Shown in pieces: positions 2,809-17,964 of a stretch of DNA of 22,490 nucleotides. The stretch covers positions 1 to 22,490 of IMG/VR virus record IMGVR_UViG_3300032242_001842; one strand, written 5' to 3'. Source of the stretch: a virus. The translations under genes and the position numbers were made by a program. The notes under the pieces were generated by a model, which saw only the letters and a program-made list of their open reading frames with translations, ran no database searches and was not told the DNA's origin. Within the stretch, counting starts at the first letter, position 1. The number at the start of each line of letters is the position of its first letter.

Positions 2809-2816
2809 TATTTATT
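2809..2816 (-). promoter_or_regulatory. T4-late-promoter-like octamer ahead of gp13
   Basis: On the minus strand this reads AATAAATA followed by C, one mismatch from the T4 late -10 consensus TATAAATA. It overlaps the end of the fibre gene and stands 24 bases from the gp13 start, a plausible promoter-to-gene distance. The same octamer occurs in the gap before the 661-residue fibre. AT-rich DNA produces such octamers by chance (one also lies inside gp15), so this is a candidate only. Confidence 0.45.
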
Positions 2817-5226
2817 TTGAAAAAGATGCAACCATTTGCTTTAATTCGTCTATTTGCTTTTGTTGTTCTTTGATAGCTTGAATTAGTAATGGTACCAACT
2901 TTTCGTATTGAACCGTTTTATAGTTTTCACCCGACTTGCTGTATTCTGTTCCATCTTCATTCTTTGCGATATCAAATGGTGCAGGAACAACAACTTGAGG
3001 AAGAACTTTTTCTATTTCTTGTGCAATAACACCGACCTGTTCTTTATCATCCGTATACCCATATTCAGCCGCTGTTTCGTTTGATTCAAAAGTAACACCA
3101 GATATTTGCATAACTTTGCTAATTGCATTGTTAATCGGTGTAATATTCTTTTTTAACCTTCTATCAGAAAAATAGGCAGTAATGTTATTGGTAGCACGAA
3201 TTTCACCAGTAGTACCTGATGCAGCAGTACCAACACCAAACGAACCAAATTGTACCGAAGATGTTGTTGCAATTGATTGTGGTGTGGAGAGAGTGACTGA
3301 ACCTGTTGAACCCGAAACAGAAATTTGGTTCGTAGTACCCGTTAGACCAGTAACACCAGCATTTGAAATCGTCAGAGCGGCCGATCCGTTATATGTTGTA
3401 CCTGACGACAATGAAAGACCTGTACTGACTGTGAGCGCATTGGCAACCGAACCTGCCGAGCCGGTATAACCTGTGCAGTTTGTCAATGTTCCAGATGCTG
3501 GAGTACCCAATGCAGGTGTTGTAAATGTGGGTGATGTTAATGTCACACCAGCAAAACTGGTTACGGTAGAACCAAGAGATACTGATGTAGAACCAATAGT
3601 TACCGATGAATTAGCTAACGCCGAATTTTGAACTGTAGCTGAGCCAGTTACATATGTGGCCGAATTAGCAGAACCTGTGGTATTCTGGTTTAAAGTTGGA
3701 AACGTACAATTGGTTAAAGTACCTGATGCTGGAGTACCCAATGCAGGTGTTGTAAATGTAGGTGATGTTAGCGTTACGCCAGCAAAACTAGATACAGTAG
3801 AACCAAGAGATACTGATGTAGAACCAATAGTTAAGGATGAATTGGTTAATGCGCCATTCGGAATACTGGTTAATGATGCACCAGATCCGGAGAATGTACC
3901 TGCTGTCAGAACGCCGGTTGATGGGTTGTATGTGGCAGTACCATAAAGAATAGATGTTCCGTTATTTACAGCAATAGTATAGTTAGCGTTAGTTGAACTT
4001 AATGTTGTGGTTACAGAACCAGCAGTCAACGATGCAGCGGTACCATTTAAACCTGCTCCGGATCCAAAATGAGATCCAAAAAAACCTGTGTTGGAAGTTA
4101 CTGCGTTGGCAGACAAATTGCCTGTTGCTGCGTTAAATGATAAAGCAACGTTTGCGTTGGCCGCTAAGTTACCAGTTAACGCATTAATTAATACAGGATA
4201 AAATGTGCCCGTTGTGACTGTTGTAACCGGAATAGTGTTACCTACGTTTGCATAGGCACTGCTAGCCGATGTTACGGTAACGGAACCACCTAGTGAAACT
4301 GATGTTCCATTGATTGTTATACTATTCGCGGCCCATATTGGAGCACCAGATCCACCGGACACCAAAATCTGGCCAGCGGTACCCGTGGCAGTAGACCATG
4401 CAAAGGCAGTACCAGTTCCATAAGCGATTGCACCAGCAGTTGGTGTTGCTGTGGAGTTGGTGCCGCCATTACCAATAGGCAATGTACCTGTCACACCCGT
4501 TGTCAAAGAGATACTTGTTAGACCGGCACCGGATCCAAAATGAGATCCAAAGAAACCTGTGTTGGAAGTTACTGCGATGGCGGACAAGATACCTGTAGCA
4601 GCATTTAATGAAAGAGCTACGTTAGCACTTTGAGATAAAGTTCCAGTCAAAGCGTTAACAAGTACAGGATAATATGTTCCTGTCGTTGCCGTGGTTATTG
4701 GTGTTCCTATTGTTATTGAACCACCTAGTGAAACTGATGTTCCATTAACAGTTATACTATTGGCTGCCCATATTGGAGATCCAGATCCACCAGATACTAA
4801 AATTTGTCCTGAAGTACCTGTTGTTGAAAATGCGTATGCTGTTCCTGTTCCATATGCAAGAGCACCGGCTGTAGGTGTAGTTGTGGTATTTGTTCCACCA
4901 TTTCCTATTGGAAGTGTACCTGTTACACCGGTCGTTAGTGATATGCCGGTTAAACCAGAACCTGAACCAAAATGAGGTCCATAAATTCCGGTACTTGCTG
5001 TGATGGATGATACTGCTAAGTTTCCCGTTATCGTACCTGAAGTTGTATTGATATTGTTTGCAACTACGTTACCGGACGACCATACGTTACCAGAAACACC
5101 AATACCACCGGACACAATCAAAGCGCCAGTTAAGTTTGATGTTGCTGTATTGGCACCTAAAACGAACAACCTAGTGTTGACGTTTGCGCTACCGTATATT
5201 GTTGTTCCTGATTGTAGTTTTGCCAT
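2812..5226 (-). CDS. Tail fibre with C-terminal S74 self-cleaving chaperone (804 aa)
   Basis: This is a repeat-built fibre ending in a peptidase S74 (endosialidase-type intramolecular chaperone) domain. The domain begins about residue 687 with S-D-R-R-L-K. S687 and K692 occupy the Ser/Lys dyad positions (Ser + 5) of the family, in which cleavage before the Ser releases the chaperone after the fibre trimer folds. VGVIAQEIEKVLP and YKTVQYEKLVPLLIQAIKE follow, ending in a short coiled coil. The shaft is low-complexity Gly/Ser/Thr/Ala beta repeats: a roughly 150-residue unit between 80 and 393 (GTLPIGNGGTN, GQILVSGGSG, TGTFYPVLINAL), and a shorter pair at 460-585 (PTFTTPALGTPASG). The N-terminus (TSNLTGALIVSGGIGVSGNV) resembles a segment of the 576-residue fibre. 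Expected on the virion tail or side fibres; the receptor is unknown. No strong ribosome site is seen. Confidence 0.9.
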   Translation of the reverse strand: MAKLQSGTTIYGSANVNTRLFVLGANTATSNLTGALIVSGGIGVSGNVWSSGNVVANNINTTSGTITGNLAVSSITASTGIYGPHFGSGSGLTGISLTTGVTGTLPIGNGGTNTTTTPTAGALAYGTGTAYAFSTTGTSGQILVSGGSGSPIWAANSITVNGTSVSLGGSITIGTPITTATTGTYYPVLVNALTGTLSQSANVALSLNAATGILSAIAVTSNTGFFGSHFGSGAGLTSISLTTGVTGTLPIGNGGTNSTATPTAGAIAYGTGTAFAWSTATGTAGQILVSGGSGAPIWAANSITINGTSVSLGGSVTVTSASSAYANVGNTIPVTTVTTGTFYPVLINALTGNLAANANVALSFNAATGNLSANAVTSNTGFFGSHFGSGAGLNGTAASLTAGSVTTTLSSTNANYTIAVNNGTSILYGTATYNPSTGVLTAGTFSGSGASLTSIPNGALTNSSLTIGSTSVSLGSTVSSFAGVTLTSPTFTTPALGTPASGTLTNCTFPTLNQNTTGSANSATYVTGSATVQNSALANSSVTIGSTSVSLGSTVTSFAGVTLTSPTFTTPALGTPASGTLTNCTGYTGSAGSVANALTVSTGLSLSSGTTYNGSAALTISNAGVTGLTGTTNQISVSGSTGSVTLSTPQSIATTSSVQFGSFGVGTAASGTTGEIRATNNITAYFSDRRLKKNITPINNAISKVMQISGVTFESNETAAEYGYTDDKEQVGVIAQEIEKVLPQVVVPAPFDIAKNEDGTEYSKSGENYKTVQYEKLVPLLIQAIKEQQKQIDELKQMVASFSK
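3179..3240 (-). repeat. 62-bp exact repeat, copy 1 (S74 junction)
   Basis: This stretch is identical base for base to 13115-13176 in the 1731-residue fibre. It encodes the segment immediately before the S74 cleavage site (FGVGTAASGTTGEIRATNNI). The flanking S74 codons differ at many positions between the two genes. Confidence 0.9.
3472..3849 (-). repeat. Internal duplication in the 804-aa fibre
   Basis: Residues 460-507 and 536-585 repeat the series IGSTSVSLGSTV, SFAGVTLTSPTFTTPALG and TPASGTLTNCT. At DNA level 3494-3528 and 3725-3759 are identical over 35 bases, which suggests duplication or conversion within the gene. Confidence 0.8.
4048..4989 (-). repeat. Large tandem beta repeat in the 804-aa fibre shaft
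   Basis: A unit of about 150 residues is present roughly two and a half times between residues 80 and 393. Landmarks of each copy are FGSxFGSGxGL, LTTGVTGTLPIGNGGTN, GQILVSGGSG, PIWAANSIT, NGTSVSLGGS, then TGTxYPVLxNALTG and LNAATG. Its modules also occur singly in neighbouring fibres. Confidence 0.8.
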
Positions 5227-5241
5227 AGTTTTATATTTACT

Positions 5242-5904
5242 TTAAAAAGAAATGCCTTTAGTCTGGAAGAAATCATAATCTTCTTTCGAATATGATATTA
5301 TATAATCGATCTCTTCTTGAGTAATTGCGGGATCATTGGGTATGTATTGCTTTTCATTTAATATATTTAGTGCATAATCACTGATGCCTAATTCAGCCGC
5401 AATTGATGCCACTCCCGTGGAAAATTGACTATACGGCAATAACTCTATATTATCAAATGCTAGCCAATCTCGTTGAGGGTATAATAATGGCCAATTAGGG
5501 GATACTTTTTCCTTAAAATCGCTTTCTAAGAAATCTATAATTTTAATTCTCGCCAAAGCGTCTTGTATTTCTGTAGACAAACTCTCAAAAGAATCTCGAT
5601 TTAAATGAGAGATTTTAAATTGATTGCCATAAAAATAATTTAACATCTTCACTAGATGACCAGGAGTAGTTCTTATATAATTCCACATAGATAACATTCG
5701 CTCTACGGGTTCTCTGTAAAAACAAAACATTTTAGTTGTGCTTAAATTTGGGTTGTACCTCTGCACAAAATGATTAACATTCATATGATTATGAATACAC
5801 TGATCAAATGTGAATGTGGTATTTTGAAAACAATCAACCAAACTAGTTGTGCCAGTTTTGGGATTTAAAAATACAGCAACTGATTTTTCAGCGGAGTAAA
5901 TCAT
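5242..5904 (-). CDS. Sulfotransferase-like enzyme
   Basis: A 220-residue protein with the layout of carbohydrate sulfotransferases, which move sulfate from PAPS to a sugar hydroxyl. Residues 14-21, N-P-K-T-G-T-T-S, after a short beta strand (VAVFL), match the 5'-phosphosulfate loop. Residues 58-74, ending C-F-Y-R-E-P-V-E-R-M-L-S-M-W, match the 3'-phosphate-binding motif (R64, R69, S72). YPQRDWL (142-148) and a C-terminal SKEDYDFF (206-213) also fit the family. There is no signal peptide or membrane segment, so it should act in the cytoplasm of the infected cell. Its start overlaps the preceding 75-residue gene by four bases (ATGA), with GGAG just upstream, so the two are translated together. 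It lies between an adhesin-like gene and an S74 fibre. The fold assignment is fairly sure. The substrate (host surface glycan, phage fibre or a metabolite) is unknown. Confidence 0.78.
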   Translation of the reverse strand: MIYSAEKSVAVFLNPKTGTTSLVDCFQNTTFTFDQCIHNHMNVNHFVQRYNPNLSTTKMFCFYREPVERMLSMWNYIRTTPGHLVKMLNYFYGNQFKISHLNRDSFESLSTEIQDALARIKIIDFLESDFKEKVSPNWPLLYPQRDWLAFDNIELLPYSQFSTGVASIAAELGISDYALNILNEKQYIPNDPAITQEEIDYIISYSKEDYDFFQTKGISF

Positions 5905-6128
5905 TGCTCCAATCTCGCAATATTTTTATCTTGTGCAGCAACCATGTCAAAATTTGTATCAATATATTTGTTTATATCACCAGTAAAATCCAATGGTGGA
6001 TTTGGTATAGTATAATCCTCCGTGACTAATATATTGGTGTTATGGTCAATTGTGTATAATCTAAAGACAATAACACCCTCAGTAGGTATCAATTCAATCC
6101 AGTGTTTGTAGGCGGGAAATATGGGCAT
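5901..6128 (-). CDS. Small protein of unknown function, coupled to the sulfotransferase-like gene
   Basis: A 75-residue protein that I do not recognise. It has no signal peptide, membrane segment or cysteine. The first half is rich in aromatic and beta-prone residues (WIELIPTEGVIVFRLYTID, 10-28). The second half carries a proline run (IPNPPLDFTG, 41-50) and ends in a probable helix (NFDMVAAQDKNIARLEQ). The gene begins four bases after the glycine-rich adhesin gene and its stop overlaps the sulfotransferase-like start as ATGA. The position suggests a fibre accessory or assembly factor for the adhesin, or a partner of the enzyme. Both are guesses from context. Confidence 0.7.
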   Translation of the reverse strand: MPIFPAYKHWIELIPTEGVIVFRLYTIDHNTNILVTEDYTIPNPPLDFTGDINKYIDTNFDMVAAQDKNIARLEQ

Positions 6129-6132
6129 TGCA

Positions 6133-7686
6133 TTAATAGTAGCTGATCACTACTGCTCCTGTTAGTCCATTATCCCCACCATCGGTATATGTACCATAAT
6201 TACCTTTACTAGTTAAGTTTTTAATAACTCTACCAGCGGAACCATATCTTGCACCATAATAACCAACGACTCCTAAATTAGGTGTGTACATTATTCCATT
6301 AGGAGGAGTTTGACTACTGTTTGGTGCGGTGTAAGAATAAGCGATTCCCGTAGTATTGGTGCCGACAATATTTGCATCAGTACCGCCAGTTGCTGTGCCA
6401 CCTGCAGCAGCAGTAAATCCTGATCCAATACCGCCACCGCCACCACCCGCAGTCATAGTTGTAATGGTAGCTGTACCACTTGATACTGTTGATGTATTTC
6501 CTGCAAGTGCTGAAAAATTGCCACCACCAAGTCCTCGACCAGTACCGCCACCACCCACAGTAATTGATAGAGTTAATCCTGCTAAAGAAGCAGCATTAGT
6601 GAGAATAGTTCTACAATATCCTCCAGCACCTGGATCAGTTCCGCCAGATGACGTATATGACGGAGAGTTGCCTCCCGTATCTTCATAAACCTGCGCGCCA
6701 CCTCCCCCACCGCCCCACGCTTCTATCACCATAACACTATATCCAGCAGGTATCGTGTGCGTATATGTATTTTGTATCTGCCTTGCGGTTGTTACATAAA
6801 TTGTGGTGTTTGATGGGATTCCTGTTACTTCGTCAAATATACCAGCAATTTGCATTGAACCAGTATTTGTTAACCTACTCGCAATACTACCGCCATTAAT
6901 AGTTAACTCGTCTAACTCATTATAGACTACTTCATTTTGAGTGATTCTTGATTGAGTTGTAGGTGTTGACTGTGTATATGGCGAATTGAGAGAAAATCCT
7001 GGCAGAGGAGATCCAAGTAATGGAGATTTTATATTTGTCGCACCTAATGCAGCGTCATAAAATCTATTATAATAATCTGTGACATTAAGTAAAAAAATAG
7101 TATTTGCTAACTTACTAAGAACAGAAGTAGGCGGTGTGAAATTGCCTGTATACACTACTGATGTGGTTAATCTAAAATCTTTTATATACCCGTTATACCA
7201 ATACCCCAAACCAATGGTAGTATTATACCCAAATGTTCCTATTAAATTAAAATTAAAAGCAGTGTTATCTGTATAAGTTGCTGATGAAACTCCATTAATA
7301 TAAAGAGTATTTGTTGTTCCACTTCTCACCCAAGCCAGATGAGCCCATTGACCTGGGATAACAGAAGTTCCAACATATTGAAATACTTGCGTTCCATTAT
7401 TATAGACACCCACAGATCCTTTTGGACCAAGATTTTCATTAAGTCTAAATATTTGTAAATTACTGTCAATGTCACTTGATGCAACCATCATCTCAGCATA
7501 ACTTAAAGGATAGACCCAAGTTTCAAGAGTAAAGTCGCCCGACACTGTTGCAATAGTAGTTGACGGTTTATAATACATTGTAGTATCAAATGCCAAACTG
7601 CCGCTATATAATGCAGTTTCATCAAACGGAATATTTGAGTTTGTTAGCAAATTTCCAGTGCTTTTTAAACTCGTTACAACAGGCAT
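6133..7686 (-). CDS. LamG-like and glycine-rich adhesin/tail-fibre protein (517 aa)
   Basis: Residues 25-202 look like a LamG/concanavalin-type jelly roll, a fold that often binds sugars: a SLAFDTTMYY strand, GDFTLETWVYP (50-60), GQWAHLAWVRSG (112-123), NTLYINGV (126-133), IGLGYWYNGYIKDFRL (158-172). A linker follows. Residues 305-517 are a glycine-rich domain that starts with TIPAGYSVMVIEAWGGGGGG (311-330) and carries further Gly runs (GGGGTGRGLGGG, GGGGGG). This is typical of glycine-rich phage tip domains and recalls the polyglycine-helix adhesins at T-even fibre tips. It ends in a beta strand (GAVVISYY) with no S74 chaperone. It is probably a receptor-binding tip protein. The start is two bases after the 576-residue fibre stop, with GGA seven bases before the ATG. 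Confidence 0.82.
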   Translation of the reverse strand: MPVVTSLKSTGNLLTNSNIPFDETALYSGSLAFDTTMYYKPSTTIATVSGDFTLETWVYPLSYAEMMVASSDIDSNLQIFRLNENLGPKGSVGVYNNGTQVFQYVGTSVIPGQWAHLAWVRSGTTNTLYINGVSSATYTDNTAFNFNLIGTFGYNTTIGLGYWYNGYIKDFRLTTSVVYTGNFTPPTSVLSKLANTIFLLNVTDYYNRFYDAALGATNIKSPLLGSPLPGFSLNSPYTQSTPTTQSRITQNEVVYNELDELTINGGSIASRLTNTGSMQIAGIFDEVTGIPSNTTIYVTTARQIQNTYTHTIPAGYSVMVIEAWGGGGGGAQVYEDTGGNSPSYTSSGGTDPGAGGYCRTILTNAASLAGLTLSITVGGGGTGRGLGGGNFSALAGNTSTVSSGTATITTMTAGGGGGGIGSGFTAAAGGTATGGTDANIVGTNTTGIAYSYTAPNSSQTPPNGIMYTPNLGVVGYYGARYGSAGRVIKNLTSKGNYGTYTDGGDNGLTGAVVISYY

Positions 7687-7688
7687 AA

Positions 7689-9419
7689 TTATCCAAACAC
7701 CGTGTCTAAACTGGCTGTTACTGAGTTATAATATTGATAGATAACAGATACACTATTCGAGTTTGCCCAACCAACACGGCCGCCAACATATACGTTACCT
7801 GATACACCTACACCACCGGCAACAACCAACGCACCCGTTAAGTTTGAAGTAGAGGCTAATGTACTCGATAAATTCAATTGTCCTGTTGCAGCATTAAAGT
7901 TTAATGCCGAAGCAGCATTGGCGCCTAAGTTGCCTGTGACAGCATTAACCAGCATAGGATAGAAAGTACCTGTTGTCGCTGTTGATACGTTAACGGTGTT
8001 TGCAATGTTTGCGTAATTGACACTATTGCCTACAGAAGAAGGAAGATTGGTGAGTAAAGAACCGTTACCAATAATATAGCTTCCATTAACATTACCAGGA
8101 ACAGTCAGCGCACCTGCGTCTGTTAAATTAAGTATATTTGTTGAGTAAACACCATTAATTATCTGTAGAGCACCAGTACTATCTATTCTAAAATATTTGC
8201 CTGTATTAGCTACACCACCATAAGAAAGATTATTGGCCGACAGAAAATCAAAATAACCAAGACCACCTCTGGTATTTGCACCAACCGCATTAAGTGCGGT
8301 TAATTGGCTATTAGTTGGTCCTGCAAAATACGATATAGTAATAGTATTGGCGTAAGTATTTCCCGCAATAAACAAAGTATTATTTGCTGCGTTATATGAA
8401 AGACCAGATGAAGCATTGGCACCTAAGTTGCCTGTAACAGCATTAACCATAACAGGATAGAAAGTACCGGTTGCTGCTGTTGTTATGACTTGAGTGTTAG
8501 AACTGTTTGCATAGGGAATATTGAATAAACCTGCACCAGATCCGGCGTGGTTTCCTGTTACCGTGCCACCACTATAAACGTTTCCTAGAACACCAATACC
8601 ACCAAGTGCAACTAATGCACCAGTAGAAGTTGAAGTGGATGTATTATTACTGTTGGCATAAATTATGCCAGTACCTTTAGGAGTTAAATTGATTCCTATA
8701 TTAGGATCTGAACCTTGCGCTCCAAAAGTAACTGGAAAACCAGTGACGTTTCCTGTTATGAAAGCATAGTTTACGGCAGCTGCTGTTCCGTAGATTCGAG
8801 CCTGTTCGTATCCACCCGCAACGAAACCCACATCGCCATTGGGTGATGGAGTTCCTGTAGAAGGGTTATAAATTCCTCTGTTGGTCGAACCAAAACTAAG
8901 GCCTGGTTGAGAAACACTTCCACCACCAACAACAACACCATACGTGCCTTTTGGAACTAGTGTAATACCAATATTAGGATCAGAACCTGCTGCGGATATT
9001 CTAGGTGAAGATACTGCAGCACTGACGTTAGGAACTGCCGAATCAATTTGTATATAGTTATTTCCGCCGGTATTACCAAACGTAGAGTTATTTCCTGTTG
9101 TTAATTGTCCTGTAATGTTTATTGCATTAGACAACGCAATGTTTATTGTTTGCGTTGTTGTATTTGTTGTTATTGAAATGTTATTGCCGGCGGAAAACGT
9201 AAGTGTCTGGTTTGGCGCAGTTGGAATTAAAGAAGTTCCGTTTGCAGTTACAGTGCTAAAACCATTAGCATAAAAATAGGTGGTTGCACCACCCAAGTTT
9301 TTAAAGTACAACTTACCGTCGGCAAAGTTGAGAGCTATCTCTCCATTTGCCAATGATGAGGGTGTGCTTCCAGGTGTTGCTGACTTTTTATGTATTAATA
9401 CTGTATTTGCTATTGCCAT
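7689..9419 (-). CDS. Repeat-rich tail fibre with Mtd-like N-terminus (576 aa)
   Basis: The first 50 residues (VLIHKKSATPG, LANGEIALNFADGKLYFKNL) resemble the small N-terminal domain of Mtd-type tail-fibre proteins, which probably anchors the fibre. The rest is beta-prone low-complexity sequence. It includes two GSDPNIGINLTPKG-type segments (near 146 and 237), two copies of a TGTFYPVMVNAVTGNLGA module (about 317-334 and 483-500), and two TGALVVAGGVGVSGNVYVGG-like segments (266-285 and 528-547). The last two module types are also in the 804-residue S74 fibre. There is no S74 domain, and the protein ends in ASLDTVFG. It begins three bases after the coiled-coil gene, whose last codons supply a GGCGGAAG ribosome site. 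Fibre identity is firm; the receptor is unknown. Confidence 0.82.
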   Translation of the reverse strand: MAIANTVLIHKKSATPGSTPSSLANGEIALNFADGKLYFKNLGGATTYFYANGFSTVTANGTSLIPTAPNQTLTFSAGNNISITTNTTTQTINIALSNAINITGQLTTGNNSTFGNTGGNNYIQIDSAVPNVSAAVSSPRISAAGSDPNIGITLVPKGTYGVVVGGGSVSQPGLSFGSTNRGIYNPSTGTPSPNGDVGFVAGGYEQARIYGTAAAVNYAFITGNVTGFPVTFGAQGSDPNIGINLTPKGTGIIYANSNNTSTSTSTGALVALGGIGVLGNVYSGGTVTGNHAGSGAGLFNIPYANSSNTQVITTAATGTFYPVMVNAVTGNLGANASSGLSYNAANNTLFIAGNTYANTITISYFAGPTNSQLTALNAVGANTRGGLGYFDFLSANNLSYGGVANTGKYFRIDSTGALQIINGVYSTNILNLTDAGALTVPGNVNGSYIIGNGSLLTNLPSSVGNSVNYANIANTVNVSTATTGTFYPMLVNAVTGNLGANAASALNFNAATGQLNLSSTLASTSNLTGALVVAGGVGVSGNVYVGGRVGWANSNSVSVIYQYYNSVTASLDTVFG

Positions 9420-12087: not shown

Positions 12088-12095
12088 TATTTATT
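12088..12095 (-). promoter_or_regulatory. T4-late-promoter-like octamer ahead of the 661-aa fibre
   Basis: The minus strand reads AATAAATA then C, one mismatch from the T4 late consensus TATAAATA. It sits at the end of the 100-residue gene, 34 bases from the next ATG. That gap also holds a good ribosome site, which a gap in a tightly packed cluster would need if transcription begins there. Confidence 0.5.
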
Positions 12096-12768: not shown

Positions 12769-15700
12769 TTACTTCTTCTTTAGTTCTTCGATTTCGGCCT
12801 TCAGTTCTTTGATGGCTTCGATCAATAATGGTACCAATTTTTCGTAATGAACTGTTTTATAGTTCTCACCCGATTTACTATATTGAACACCATCAACATA
12901 TTCCGTGTCAAATGGTGCAGCAACCACAACTTCTGGCAACACCGCTTCAACTTCTTGTGCAATAACACCAACTTGAGTTCTTTTATCGGTGTAACCGTAC
13001 TGTTCTGCAAGTTCATTTGAATTGAATTTTACACCAGATATTTGCATAACTTTATCAAGAGCATTGGATATTGATGTAATATTTTCTTTTAGTCTCTTGT
13101 CAGAATAGTACGCGGTAATGTTATTGGTAGCACGAATTTCACCAGTAGTACCTGATGCAGCAGTACCAACACCAAAAGATCCGTGTTGTACCGAAGATGA
13201 TGTTGCAATATCTTGAGGCAGACTTAGTAAAACATTACCCGTTGAACTATTTGCAGTAACCTGATTTGTAGTACCTGTTATTGATGTTACGCCACCACTC
13301 GCTCCACTAGAGGCCGCAGTGACACGACCATATGTATCTACGGTTAAGTTTGCATTGGTGTATGAACCTGCTGTTACGACACCCGATTTAAGGTTCAATG
13401 TTACTGCTGTATTGCCGTAATATGTTGTGCCGCTTGACAATGAAAGTGTTGAACCAATTGTCAGAGCGTTAGCAACTGAACCGGCTTGTCCGCCTGTTGC
13501 TATAGGCGTATAACCTAATGCCGTCGTAATTACAGATGAGGTAATATACGAAGATGTAATGTAACCAGATGGATTGGTTGCGTTATATGGTGTAAAACCT
13601 AAACCAGCAACAATATTGGCGTTTGTCAAATAACTCGATGTAATGTAACCAGATGGATTGGTTGCGTTATATGGTGTAAATCCAAGTGCCGTTGTTACCT
13701 GACTTGAGGTGATCGATGCACCGGTAGATAGTGCAGTTGCAGTACCGTTGAACGTCACACCACCAGAAGTTTGTGTAATAGAACCTACAGAAGCACTTGC
13801 GGCGTTCATGAAGTTTAATATTGTTGTGCCGTCTGTTACAGGCAAGAAAGTCATACCGTATTGACTGGCGCCGCCTGTATAATTAACAACTGCTGCTGAA
13901 GTACTACCAGATACTTGAGATGCACCACCTATTAATGCTGTTGTGGCATTTAGTGTTACAATCTGACCAAGTGAAGTCAAACTTGAACCAGTAACACCTG
14001 ATGCCAATGTTGCACCTGTTAATGTTCCGGCGGCCGCGGTCACAGTAGCAGAACCACCAAGACTTATTGAAGTTCCGTTTACAGTGATCGAAGAATTCGC
14101 TAATGCATTATTAGGTACTGAACCAATTGTGATGTTGCCGCCGGATAAGTTTGTTAGATTTGCACCCGATACTGCACCGAACGTTGATGACCAAGTTCCT
14201 GATGTTATTGTTCCAACAGAAGTTAAACTTGAACCAGTAACACCCGATGCCAATGTGGTGCCGGTTAATGTTCCTGCTGCAGCTGTTACAGTAGCAGAAC
14301 CACCGAGACTTATTGAAGTTCCGTTAACGGTAACTGAACTGTTAGTCAAAGCAGAGTTAGGTACCGATGCCGCAGTTATATTGGCACCCGCAATGCTTGT
14401 TAGTGCCGCGCCATTACCTGAGAATGTTCCTATCAATGTTGCTGGAGTTAACGATGCATAATTTACCGTGTTACCTGTTGGTGCAGTCGCCAAATTCTTA
14501 AAGAGATAGAAACTACCTGCATTAGTTCCACCCGAACCTTCTCGAATTAAACCGTGATATCCAGCACTTGATAAACCGTAAAAACCAATATCAATTACAT
14601 CTGACGTAGAATTGTTGGCGGCCAGTTGTATTAACGACTGAGTTGTTTGCAATGTAGAAGTATTAACATACTCAGCTGTTCCTGAAACTCTCAGGTTACC
14701 AGAAATTGATACGTCATTCTGGAATATTGTGGCACCGGTAAATAATCCACCTGTATTAGCCTTGTTATATGCTGATATTGCGTAAGTATTAACAGCATTA
14801 GATGAATTATAACTAGATGCAGCTAACGTATTAGCCGCATTTGCTTGGTTAAATGCAGGAGTTACAAGGGTTCCTGCATTATTGGCCAAAGCATAGGCCG
14901 ATATTGCGTAAGTATTAACGGCATTTGCTGTTGCATAACTTGATATTGCGTATGTATTAACAGCGTTGGACGAATTATAACTGGATGCAGCCAAAGTGTT
15001 TGCAGCATTAGCCTGGTTAAATGCAGGAGTTACAAGTGTTCCAGCATTATTTGCTACGCTATATGCTGATATTGCGTATGTGTTAACGGCATTTGCTGTA
15101 TTGTAACTAGAGATTGCATACGTGTTAACGGCATTAGAAGATGCATATGCAGAAATTGCAAAGGTATTAACCGCGTTGGCTGTGTTATAACCAGATATTG
15201 CATACGTATTTGTTGCGTTTGCTGTTGCATATGCAGATATTGAATATGTGCTAACTGCGTTAGAGGATGCATATGCAGAAATTGCAAAGGTATTAACCGC
15301 GTTGGCTGTGTTATAACTAGCTATTGAATATGTGCTAACCGAGTTGGCTGTAGAATACGAAGAATACGAATAAGTGTTAACAGAATTTATGTTTGTATTC
15401 TGTAAATTATTTACCTGTTGTAAATAATACACAGCATTAGATGTTGCAACATTTGTTGATGATGCTGTTGTTACAGAATCAGATCGATATTCATCTGTTA
15501 GTATTCTATAAAAAATTCCTGTATTAACATCGTTTAGATCCCAATACAAGTTTGATTCTGTCCAACGAATATATGCATTTCCTGCGCCGGTATTTCTATA
15601 TGTACCAATTAGAGTTGTCTGGTTTGGTGTTGAAGTACTCAAAGTGAAATTAGGAGTATTGTAGACTGTATTACCATTTATGGTAAAGTTTCCAGATACA

Positions 15701-17964
15701 GAAACGTTACCAAATGCAGCAGTTATTCCAGTTGCAGTTAACGTTGTGCCTGTCAGTGTAAGGTTTGTACCTGTTATTGCTTGACCAGAAATTGAAGTAT
15801 TTGACACTAACGAGTTTACTACAGCAGTCGAGGCAACACTCAGTGTTGATGTGTTTACACCAGTATTACTTTGTAAATTATTCGTGTAGATTGTTCCACC
15901 ATTAGTATGCGAGGTAGAAATTATCGACACAGTATTCATCGATGTTGCAGTTACCGATGACGTATTTACGGTTGTGTTTGCTTGTAGTATATTGGTATAA
16001 ACAGTACCAGTATTAAAAATTGTTGTCGAATTTAACGTTGGTGTGCTAACCCAAGCATTTGATGTTACGTTCGTTGATACAATGTTTGATATAGTTGCAT
16101 TGCTTGACGTTAACAAACCAGTATTGAAATGACTTGTTGAATATACCGTTTGGGTACTGACCCAAGTATTTGATGTTACGTTTGACGATACGACATTGGC
16201 TATGGTTGCATTATTAGCAGTCAACTGCGATGTATTAACCGAAGTATTTGATTGTAGTGTAGCAGTATAAATGGCACCTGTATTATTTACTGTCGTAGAA
16301 TTTACAAGAGGAGTGCCAACAGAAGTATTTGCTGTCACGACTCCTGTAATCACACCAGAAGTTACCGTTGCATTTGTAGCGGTGACCAATGGTGTATTGA
16401 CATTGGTGTTTGCTTGAACAAAGTTTGCGTAAGCGGTACTAAGAGTGTTTAATGTATTTGTTGATAGAGTTACGGTGTTGATTGACAGGTTTGCTTGTAC
16501 CAAGTTTGCTGTTAGTGTTCCAGCAACCGTAAGATTAGCAACAGACATTGAAACGTTGGCAACAATATTATTAGCATATACCGTGCCAGTATTGTTTATT
16601 GTTGTTGAGTTGACCAATGTTGTATTAACGTTGGTGTTCGCAGTTAATGCGTTTGTAATAACAATGGCTGATGCAGTAACGGCCGGTGTTGTAATGTTGG
16701 TGTTTGCCACCAAGTTGTTTGTATAAGCAATGCCGGTATTATTTAATGTAGCGCTATCTACTGTTCCAGCATTGACAATATTGTTAGCCTGCAATATGTT
16801 TGTATATGTGGTGCCTGTATTGTCTATTGCGTTAGTTATTATCTGTGGCGTCTGCACGTTTGCATTAGCCGTTAATACGTTAGTAATTAAATTGTAGGTA
16901 ACTGTTGCGTTTTGTGCAGTAACCAACGGTGTGTTAACGTTTGTATTTGCTTGAACTGTATCTGTAATCACACCAGAAGTTATCGTTGCATTTGTGGCAG
17001 TAACCAACGGTGTATTAACATTGGTGTTTGCGCGCAAGTTATTTGTATAAGCAGTACCAGTATTGTTTAGTGTTGTTGAATTTACGAGAGGAGTATTGAC
17101 CGTAGTGTTTGATGTTATTACTGCGGCAATTAAACCAGTAGAGATAGTCGCATTGTTGGAGGTTAATAAACCGGTATTTGCGTTTGTTGCTTGTAGGGTT
17201 GCTGTTGAAGTCGCACCCGTATTTGTAATAGTGGTAGAATTTAATGTTCCTGTAGAAACAGAACTGTTGGCAGTTAAGTTATTTGTAATGATATTGTACT
17301 GTACTGTTGCGTACTGCGATCCAAAGTTTGGAGAATTCATTACAGTGTTTGATGTTATGCCAACCGATGCAAACACGTTTTGAGAAGCAAACAAACTGTT
17401 TGTTGTAACAAAGTTATTTGCTTGTACAGACGCAGCAAATGATTGTTGAGGAGTTACAATGTTACCAGCAACAAATAAGTTTTGTGCTATTGTGGCGCTA
17501 TTAGCAACAACGGGATTACTATAAACATATAGTGGTCCTTGCGCTAGTGTATTGCCTGAAAATATTGTGACGCCATTTACGGTAACATTACCTACAAACA
17601 ATGAATTATTTGATACGTTTAGTCCTGTACCAGAACCCGTCAGATACAATGTACCGTTTACGTTGGCCTGTCCAGAATTAACCAGACCCAATGTTGTATT
17701 AGAAAAGTATACTTGTCCACCAACCAATAAGTTATTCTGAATTTGTCCGTACGATCCAATACCCGTAGATACTAAACCACCACCAATCGTGGCGTTGTTA
17801 CTAATTTGCAGACCTAGTGTTGAGTCAGCAAGTACTAAAGTTCCTACTGGTTTAGTGTAACGTGCAGCCGCAAAGGCATTATTCTCAAAAATCAGAGAAT
17901 TGGTTGCAACGACCCAATCGCCAAACGTATTGGCATTGCTTATAGTAGAGTATGTGTTAGCCAT
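12769..17964 (-). CDS. Giant tail fibre with C-terminal S74 self-cleaving chaperone (1731 aa)
   Basis: The largest complete gene here. Order of parts: an N-terminal segment (1-230) with beta-prone turns (NNATIGGGLVSTG, NVNGTLYLTGSGTG); about 17 copies of a roughly 27-residue repeat (233-721); a short IRWTESNLYWDLND module (799-812); fifteen 14-residue repeats (860-1069). Then come an IELAANN-type module (1089-1175), paired TNSSVTVNGTSISLGGSATV and TLASGVTGSSLTS repeats, GFTPYNATNPSGYITSS repeats typical of T4 gp37-like shafts, and an S74 domain from S1621. S1621 and K1626 in S-D-K-R-L-K-E-N-I fit the Ser/Lys dyad; YKTVHYEKLVPLLIEAIKE and a terminal coiled coil follow. The start overlaps the preceding small gene by eight bases, with AAAGG upstream. 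Probably a long tail fibre, matured by self-cleavage. Confidence 0.9.
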   Translation of the reverse strand: MANTYSTISNANTFGDWVVATNSLIFENNAFAAARYTKPVGTLVLADSTLGLQISNNATIGGGLVSTGIGSYGQIQNNLLVGGQVYFSNTTLGLVNSGQANVNGTLYLTGSGTGLNVSNNSLFVGNVTVNGVTIFSGNTLAQGPLYVYSNPVVANSATIAQNLFVAGNIVTPQQSFAASVQANNFVTTNSLFASQNVFASVGITSNTVMNSPNFGSQYATVQYNIITNNLTANSSVSTGTLNSTTITNTGATSTATLQATNANTGLLTSNNATISTGLIAAVITSNTTVNTPLVNSTTLNNTGTAYTNNLRANTNVNTPLVTATNATITSGVITDTVQANTNVNTPLVTAQNATVTYNLITNVLTANANVQTPQIITNAIDNTGTTYTNILQANNIVNAGTVDSATLNNTGIAYTNNLVANTNITTPAVTASAIVITNALTANTNVNTTLVNSTTINNTGTVYANNIVANVSMSVANLTVAGTLTANLVQANLSINTVTLSTNTLNTLSTAYANFVQANTNVNTPLVTATNATVTSGVITGVVTANTSVGTPLVNSTTVNNTGAIYTATLQSNTSVNTSQLTANNATIANVVSSNVTSNTWVSTQTVYSTSHFNTGLLTSSNATISNIVSTNVTSNAWVSTPTLNSTTIFNTGTVYTNILQANTTVNTSSVTATSMNTVSIISTSHTNGGTIYTNNLQSNTGVNTSTLSVASTAVVNSLVSNTSISGQAITGTNLTLTGTTLTATGITAAFGNVSVSGNFTINGNTVYNTPNFTLSTSTPNQTTLIGTYRNTGAGNAYIRWTESNLYWDLNDVNTGIFYRILTDEYRSDSVTTASSTNVATSNAVYYLQQVNNLQNTNINSVNTYSYSSYSTANSVSTYSIASYNTANAVNTFAISAYASSNAVSTYSISAYATANATNTYAISGYNTANAVNTFAISAYASSNAVNTYAISSYNTANAVNTYAISAYSVANNAGTLVTPAFNQANAANTLAASSYNSSNAVNTYAISSYATANAVNTYAISAYALANNAGTLVTPAFNQANAANTLAASSYNSSNAVNTYAISAYNKANTGGLFTGATIFQNDVSISGNLRVSGTAEYVNTSTLQTTQSLIQLAANNSTSDVIDIGFYGLSSAGYHGLIREGSGGTNAGSFYLFKNLATAPTGNTVNYASLTPATLIGTFSGNGAALTSIAGANITAASVPNSALTNSSVTVNGTSISLGGSATVTAAAGTLTGTTLASGVTGSSLTSVGTITSGTWSSTFGAVSGANLTNLSGGNITIGSVPNNALANSSITVNGTSISLGGSATVTAAAGTLTGATLASGVTGSSLTSLGQIVTLNATTALIGGASQVSGSTSAAVVNYTGGASQYGMTFLPVTDGTTILNFMNAASASVGSITQTSGGVTFNGTATALSTGASITSSQVTTALGFTPYNATNPSGYITSSYLTNANIVAGLGFTPYNATNPSGYITSSYITSSVITTALGYTPIATGGQAGSVANALTIGSTLSLSSGTTYYGNTAVTLNLKSGVVTAGSYTNANLTVDTYGRVTAASSGASGGVTSITGTTNQVTANSSTGNVLLSLPQDIATSSSVQHGSFGVGTAASGTTGEIRATNNITAYYSDKRLKENITSISNALDKVMQISGVKFNSNELAEQYGYTDKRTQVGVIAQEVEAVLPEVVVAAPFDTEYVDGVQYSKSGENYKTVHYEKLVPLLIEAIKELKAEIEELKKK
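13115..13176 (-). repeat. 62-bp exact repeat, copy 2 (S74 junction)
   Basis: Identical to 3179-3240 in the 804-residue fibre, in the same orientation about 9.9 kb away. It encodes the residues just before the S74 cleavage site. The base after the repeat (a here, c in the other copy) and the base before it (g here, a there) both differ. Confidence 0.9.
13553..13680 (-). repeat. 84-bp tandem duplication in the 1731-aa fibre
   Basis: 13553-13596 and 13637-13680 are identical over 44 bases, offset by 84. They encode FTPYNATNPSGYITSS-type shaft repeats like those of long tail fibres. Confidence 0.8.
14440..14700 (-). other. IELAANN beta module, copy in the 1731-aa fibre
   Basis: Residues 1089-1175 carry SLIQLAANN, VIDIGFYGLS, HGLIREGSGG, FYLFKNLA and NTVNYASL. 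This matches residues 235-328 of the 661-residue fibre. It is slightly shorter in the middle, lacking a NTNTSATNSN-like insert. Confidence 0.8.
14758..15387 (-). repeat. Fifteen tandem 42-bp repeats (14-residue units)
   Basis: Residues 860-1069 are exactly fifteen 14-residue units with consensus NAVNTYAISAYATA. Two heptads per unit suggest a coiled coil. Some units are almost identical in DNA: 15140-15191 equals 15266-15317 over 52 bases, an offset of three units. A four-unit block containing NNAGTLVTPAFNQA and NAANTLAASSYNSS is itself repeated. Copy number may vary between related phages. Confidence 0.92.
15802..17268 (-). repeat. Degenerate 81-bp repeats (27-residue units)
   Basis: Residues 233-721 are a series of units, mostly 27 residues with shortened ones of 22 or 26 and a few longer. 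Each opens with N-T-x-V-N-T-P or a variant, passes through an N-A-T-I-T or N-N-T-G-T-x-Y-T-N core and ends in L-x-A or V-x-S. The regular Asn/Thr/Val pattern fits a stacked beta structure. The units are too diverged for exact DNA repeats of great length. Confidence 0.8.

Follow-up and report, generated by a model that had tools for sequence, protein, structure and literature searches.

Among the auxiliary metabolic genes of phages, sulfotransferases are a frequent entry without a known role, and the locus analysed here raises the question of what such an enzyme does among the tail-fibre genes of a virus. The whole stretch of DNA that was analysed (the window) is a virus fragment of 22,490 bases, in which neighbours of T4 type surround a sulfotransferase gene of 220 codons on the minus strand (5242..5904); the plus-strand frame over 5242-5904 is full of stops and the open reading frame runs from 5904 to 5242. 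The neighbours include gp15 (PF16724, E=5.7e-61) and the neck protein gp14 (PF11649, 1.4e-30), both matched in Pfam, and gp13 (phrog_211 in PHROGs), the remainder being fibres with S74 chaperones and a LamG adhesin (Pfam and PHROGs). By gp14, the nearest isolates are marine cyanophages at ~38% identity, and gp14 is common to 80 IMG/VR loci at 67-82% identity with the window. On this gene content the window phage is classed as a T4-like virus of bacteria. A repetitive fibre of 1,731 aa was also observed at 12769-17964; its C-terminal end matches the same fibre PHROGs as does the S74 fibre at 2812-5226, so that two fibres of this phage are alike in their C-terminal regions.

The sequence-only reading had called the gene a sulfotransferase from two PAPS-binding motifs, and both were located where it had placed them: a 5'-phosphosulfate loop of the PKTGTTS type after the first beta strand (NPKTGTTS, residues 14-21) and a 3'-phosphate motif R-x7-S (RDPxxRxxS; R64, P66, R69 and S72), colinear with that of heparan sulfate 2-O-sulfotransferase (HS2ST). 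Only two close relatives of the enzyme were found in IMG/VR, on contigs 3300032242_002820 (about 79-80% identity) and 3300032240_001991 (326,658 bases, 53% identity; hereafter the 327-kb contig). These orthologues were reached by searches that started from the 75-aa neighbour and by one with an alignment as query; with the single sulfotransferase protein, phage tblastn and an exact-peptide scan of IMG/VR returned no close relative. A degenerate loop motif gave eight matches in genome contigs, all in unrelated reading frames, and this search thus yielded no close relative of cellular origin. Across the three orthologues (53-79% identity) K16, T17, T19, S21, H38, H40, R64, P66, R69 and S72 are invariant, and donor-loop position 20 varies (T to N in the orthologue at locus L084); K16, T17, H40, R64, P66, R69 and S72 are still invariant after three distant phage proteins are added in a six-sequence alignment, a conservation beyond what chance would give. 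A dN/dS of ~0.17 (NG86, window versus L084) indicates that the protein is under purifying selection.

The best PHROG of the window protein was phrog_3347 (Galactose-3-O-sulfotransferase; E=1.4e-4, full length, residues 6-215), which is also the best PHROG for both orthologues. A Pfam search with the window protein gave no match, the curated cut-off of PF03567 Sulfotransfer_2 (22 bits) not being reached; both orthologues gave sub-threshold Sulfotransfer_1/2 matches, scoring 16.6 and 11.6 bits against the same cut-off. The protein is therefore termed Sulfotransfer_2-like and is not filed as a member. A two-motif DNA pattern identified another virus contig, L097, with two tandem sulfotransferases that both pass the PF03567 cut-off, and profile-profile comparison in hhalign aligned the three orthologues with these two enzymes over residues 7-213 (probability 95%, E=3.9e-8). 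The Sulfotransfer_2 profile search suggested by the sequence-only reading thus left the window protein below the Pfam cut-off, while homology to members of the family was found at the profile level. The two L097 genes (L097:7095-8482) are 41% identical and lie downstream of glycosyltransferase-like and UDP-sugar-dehydrogenase-like genes; no relatives of the L097 enzyme were found among isolate phages.

As controls, the three-orthologue profile was compared in hhalign with Sulfotransfer_3 enzymes from related phages (0.5%, the alignment being limited to the R64 region) and with APS-kinase-like proteins (0.3%). Membership in PF13469 Sulfotransfer_3, the family of the related phages' enzymes, was rejected on the former value, and an adenylylsulfate-kinase-like P-loop identity on the latter together with the missing Walker A motif (GxxGxGK[ST]), which is absent from the window sequence; no other P-loop family matched the protein. 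Against the PDB, a six-sequence profile returned HS2ST at the top with a weak E of 0.014, PKT, HxH and RDPxxRxxS being colinear, and in this alignment H38/H40 of the window protein correspond to the HxH of HS2ST. By this alignment and the HS2ST numbering, H40 would be the counterpart of His142. In HS2ST, His142 is the putative catalytic base and the H142A variant has <1% activity (PMC6094399). A PDB match to F-actin-capping protein (phmmer E 0.2; three-sequence profile E 0.005), confined to residues 69-141, was rejected as spurious, since the donor loop lies outside it and it is missing from the extended profile and from the top of the fold search.

A structural model was calculated with AlphaFold2 from a five-sequence alignment, single-sequence prediction being unusable (pLDDT 38). 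The model (pLDDT 67.8, pTM 0.65) has a strand at 9-13 followed by a helix at 15-27 at the donor loop and a strand-helix at R64-S72; residues 14-41, the donor loop region, were modelled at pLDDT <50, so that the PAPS pocket is not resolved. The best Foldseek match in the PDB had E=0.046 and nearly all of the first 24 matches were sulfotransferases, while among viral models a phage sulfotransferase ranked top (E=3.9e-7, probability 1.00), with further sulfotransferases next. Sulfotransferases of known type make up two of the five sequences used as input, and the model may be pulled toward that fold for this reason. A sulfotransferase-like fold is nonetheless supported by the modelling, with the PAPS loop at low confidence; neither the model nor the profile searches gave the results that the sequence-only reading had set as refuting its call. 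No signal peptide was found, the first beta strand beginning at residue 9 of the model, and a cytosolic substrate is therefore expected. The full-length match to phrog_3347, the profile-profile alignment with the PF03567-passing phage enzymes and the fold search bear out the original call and support a PAPS-type sulfotransferase of Sulfotransfer_2-like or phrog_3347-like kind as the predicted activity.

Gene order around the enzyme is identical in all three phages: fibre, LamG/glycine-rich adhesin, 75-77-aa protein, sulfotransferase and MAKL-fibre. The window adhesin (6133..7686, minus strand, 517 aa) matches LamG PF13385 (E=3.1e-13) and, slightly below the cut-off, glycine-rich PF21722 (E=5.5e-5); the adhesins of the two relatives are 80% and 40% identical to it. 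The 75-aa protein (5901..6128, minus strand), whose counterparts in the relatives are 89% and ~48% identical, overlaps the sulfotransferase start by four bases, its TGA and the ATG of the enzyme forming ATGA in the window and in both orthologues. Co-translation is thus plausible, as had been proposed for a shared message. Adhesin and enzyme have nearly equal dN between the window and the two relatives (0.126/0.125 and 0.49/0.41). The link with the adhesin, which the sequence-only reading had proposed to look for in homologous phages, is present in 3/3, and in these three phages the sulfotransferase invariably belongs to an exchangeable cassette for host recognition.

By identity to the relatives, the upstream edge of the cassette falls in the last 62 residues of the fibre gene 7689-9419 (7689..7877, minus strand) and the downstream edge in the first 55-70 residues of the S74 fibre gene 2812-5226 (5020..5226, minus strand). 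Over residues 512-576 the upstream fibre is 64.5% and 53% identical, mainly in the last 62-66 residues, with hardly any similarity or none detected over the rest of its length, and the 40% identity of the downstream fibre is restricted to residues 1-55/69. The exchangeable unit would accordingly span roughly 5020-7877 of the window, and as similarity is confined to the ends of the flanking fibres, exchange is naturally read as passing through conserved fibre ends. The 327-kb contig encodes gp23 and gp15 of the T4 superfamily and gave no match to the window gp14; its cassette lies >60 kb from gp15, on a backbone very different from that of the window and in another place. Judged by these sequence comparisons, the cassette moves between distantly related phages as one block. 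Neither the 75-aa gene nor a sulfotransferase of the window type is present in the 80 closest gp14 relatives, many of these loci being short.

The L084 adhesin (L084:2874-5996) has ~520 additional N-terminal residues ahead of the part homologous to the window, and a homing-endonuclease-like gene was recognised by eye beside the fibre genes of the same locus (L084:697-1500). Genes of this kind (GIY-YIG-like or HNH-like by eye) also lie between gp13 and gp14 in several relatives (L018:1351-2043, L023:3852-4547, L038:5336-6022, L015:501-1139, L048:9457-9999, L017:9472-9999 and L079:9799-9999), and could aid the movement of neighbouring fibre cassettes.

The slot upstream of gp13 was surveyed in the 43 gp14 relatives with at least ~3 kb of sequence there. 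Other modification enzymes occupy it in 16/43, comprising 2OG-Fe(II) oxygenases (10), Sulfotransfer_3 enzymes (6), APS-kinase-like proteins (5) and glycosyltransferases (2). The description of the surroundings as pure structural genes is therefore accurate for the window and does not extend to its relatives, where the same place often carries modifying enzymes. Sulfotransfer_3 is present in 5/5 loci with an APS-kinase-like gene (P ~6e-6 assuming independent loci, some of which are close relatives). The product of APS kinase is PAPS, the sulfotransferase donor, and such slots possibly constitute an island for PAPS supply and sulfation. In related T4-like phages these slots hold Sulfotransfer_3 (two in tandem in L051), APS-kinase-like, TPR and methyltransferase-like genes (L051:2702-7678, L075:4344-8994, L046:626-6293 and L056:122-4717). 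By eye, the C-terminal half of the APS-kinase-like protein at L051:6794-7678 looks like a nucleotidyltransferase (HxGH and ISATxIR), reminiscent of a fusion enzyme for sulfate activation. In three further loci (L002:3427-4300, L030:8263-9137 and L054:7051-8027) a PF13759 2OG-Fe(II) oxygenase adjoins a small protein of 75-94 aa directly upstream of gp13, a layout of small protein and modifying enzyme as in the window, although the proteins look unrelated. In cyanophage S-SRM01 the sulfotransferase stands in a run with a 2OG oxygenase, a TPR protein, a glycosyltransferase and a sugar epimerase, and relatives with sulfotransferases in places carry glycosyltransferases and sugar genes too.

The timing of expression was predicted from promoter-like elements. 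ATAAATA occurs <=80 bases upstream of gp13 in 42/59 relatives (0.026 expected per locus), and in the relatives it is found 225 times on the sense strand and 26 times on the opposite strand, a position and strand bias as expected of a T4-type late promoter. The window contains it only at 357, 2809, 12088 and 18049, always on the coding strand; as this total is below chance expectation, weight was placed only on position and strand. The T4-late-promoter-like site at 12088..12094 (minus strand) precedes a 661-aa fibre gene and is the nearest upstream of the cassette on the coding strand, and the next one downstream of the sulfotransferase gene, at 2809..2815 (minus strand), precedes gp13. As the stretch from 12088 to 2809 is free of further ATAAATA sites, one late operon probably comprises the enzyme gene together with the fibre and adhesin genes, and its expression is predicted to be late, with the tail genes.

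The linkage within the cassette suggests a role of the enzyme in host recognition, with sulfate being transferred either to the adhesin or to a sugar that the adhesin binds. Sulfation of the virion adhesin during assembly is the best reading, at a little below an even chance. The enzyme would be a cytosolic PAPS-dependent O-sulfotransferase, made late and drawing its sulfate donor from the host PAPS pool; the adhesin, or a residue or glycan on it, would be sulfated while assembling in the cytoplasm, with the 75-aa protein perhaps as adaptor or co-substrate, and the adhesin would thereby gain negative charge and depend on its sulfation to bind the receptor. This reading has a slight edge, given the apparently late and cytosolic enzyme and the oxygenases of a protein-modifying type that share the slot in relatives, 2OG-Fe(II) oxygenases being able to modify proteins. 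Counting against it, the nearest families, Gal3ST and HS2ST, act on carbohydrates and not on proteins, the cassettes known so far number three, and the sulfotransferase-bearing relatives with glycosyltransferases and sugar genes fit glycan modification too. Close behind is accordingly the first suggestion of the sequence-only reading, receptor modification, in which the enzyme would sulfate a cytosolic precursor of a host surface glycan read by the adhesin; progeny would then escape being trapped by debris or by cells already infected, or superinfection would be reduced, and the adhesin link would arise because both read the same glycan. The carbohydrate-acting families agree with this, and cotransfer of the adhesin is equally expected, as adhesin and receptor specificity would travel together here too. 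However, an enzyme that is late and cytosolic would have access to nascent glycan only, which makes up a small fraction of the surface, and the cassette contains no glycan-synthesis gene; receptor modification is held to be possible but doubtful.

Some phage sulfotransferases are located away from fibres, as they would be if the gene were an ordinary auxiliary metabolic gene whose product sulfates a small molecule or another host target, its adjacency to the adhesin being incidental. This is unlikely here, since the link with the adhesin and the 75-aa protein is kept in 3/3 phages, including a very distant one with the cassette in a different genomic place. The tight linkage to structural genes would also follow if catalysis had been lost and the protein acted as an assembly factor or chaperone for the adhesin, with which the variable donor-loop position 20 (T to N in L084) and the lack of a Pfam match for the window protein would agree; neither PAPS motif nor the candidate catalytic histidine varies, however, among orthologues and distant relatives, which makes such a loss highly improbable. 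Adhesin sulfation is therefore retained as the preferred reading, and we propose more tentatively its wider form, that the phage sulfates its own receptor-binding adhesin, making host recognition sulfation-dependent, and that parallel schemes in the same slot of relatives mark a general virion-modification locus. A sulfotransferase fixed to one adhesin and moving with it between distant phages provides a concrete candidate substrate or substrate class, and should the adhesin prove to be sulfated, a group of genes now taken as metabolic would need reinterpreting as genes for host recognition.

In a 2023 paper the biological function of sulfotransferases in phage genomes was stated as unclear (PMC10580990). 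The literature searched, with many journals outside its coverage, contained no report of a sulfotransferase fixed in an adhesin cassette, and none was found there of sulfation of phage tail fibres. Among known systems, phrog_3347, a phage 'moron' family, matches the window protein over its full length, though weakly and distantly; its label is an annotation, and an adhesin context is not part of the family. PF03567 Sulfotransfer_2 and human HS2ST (3f5f, 4ndz) have PKT, HxH and RDPxxRxxS in the same order as the window protein, and its distant phage relatives pass the Sulfotransfer_2 cut-off; the window protein is, however, much shorter, matched to HS2ST in the PDB only weakly and below Pfam detection. 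The sole isolate-phage tblastn match to the window enzyme, gp173 of Vibrio phage Bakedbeans (27%, first 96 residues), is itself near the Sulfotransfer_2 threshold, but it lies outside a fibre cassette, next to GTP cyclohydrolase and hypothetical genes, and a search for its relatives found none. The Sulfotransfer_3 enzymes of related T4-like phages and of cyanophages S-SRM01, S-SKS1 and S-SCSM1 are likewise sulfotransferases of T4-like phages, and in the window's relatives they occupy the same slot upstream of gp13; they belong, however, to another lineage, often accompanied by an APS-kinase-like gene and without the LamG/75-aa cassette. Phage sulfotransferases were thus already known, and the adhesin-cassette context is the new result here.
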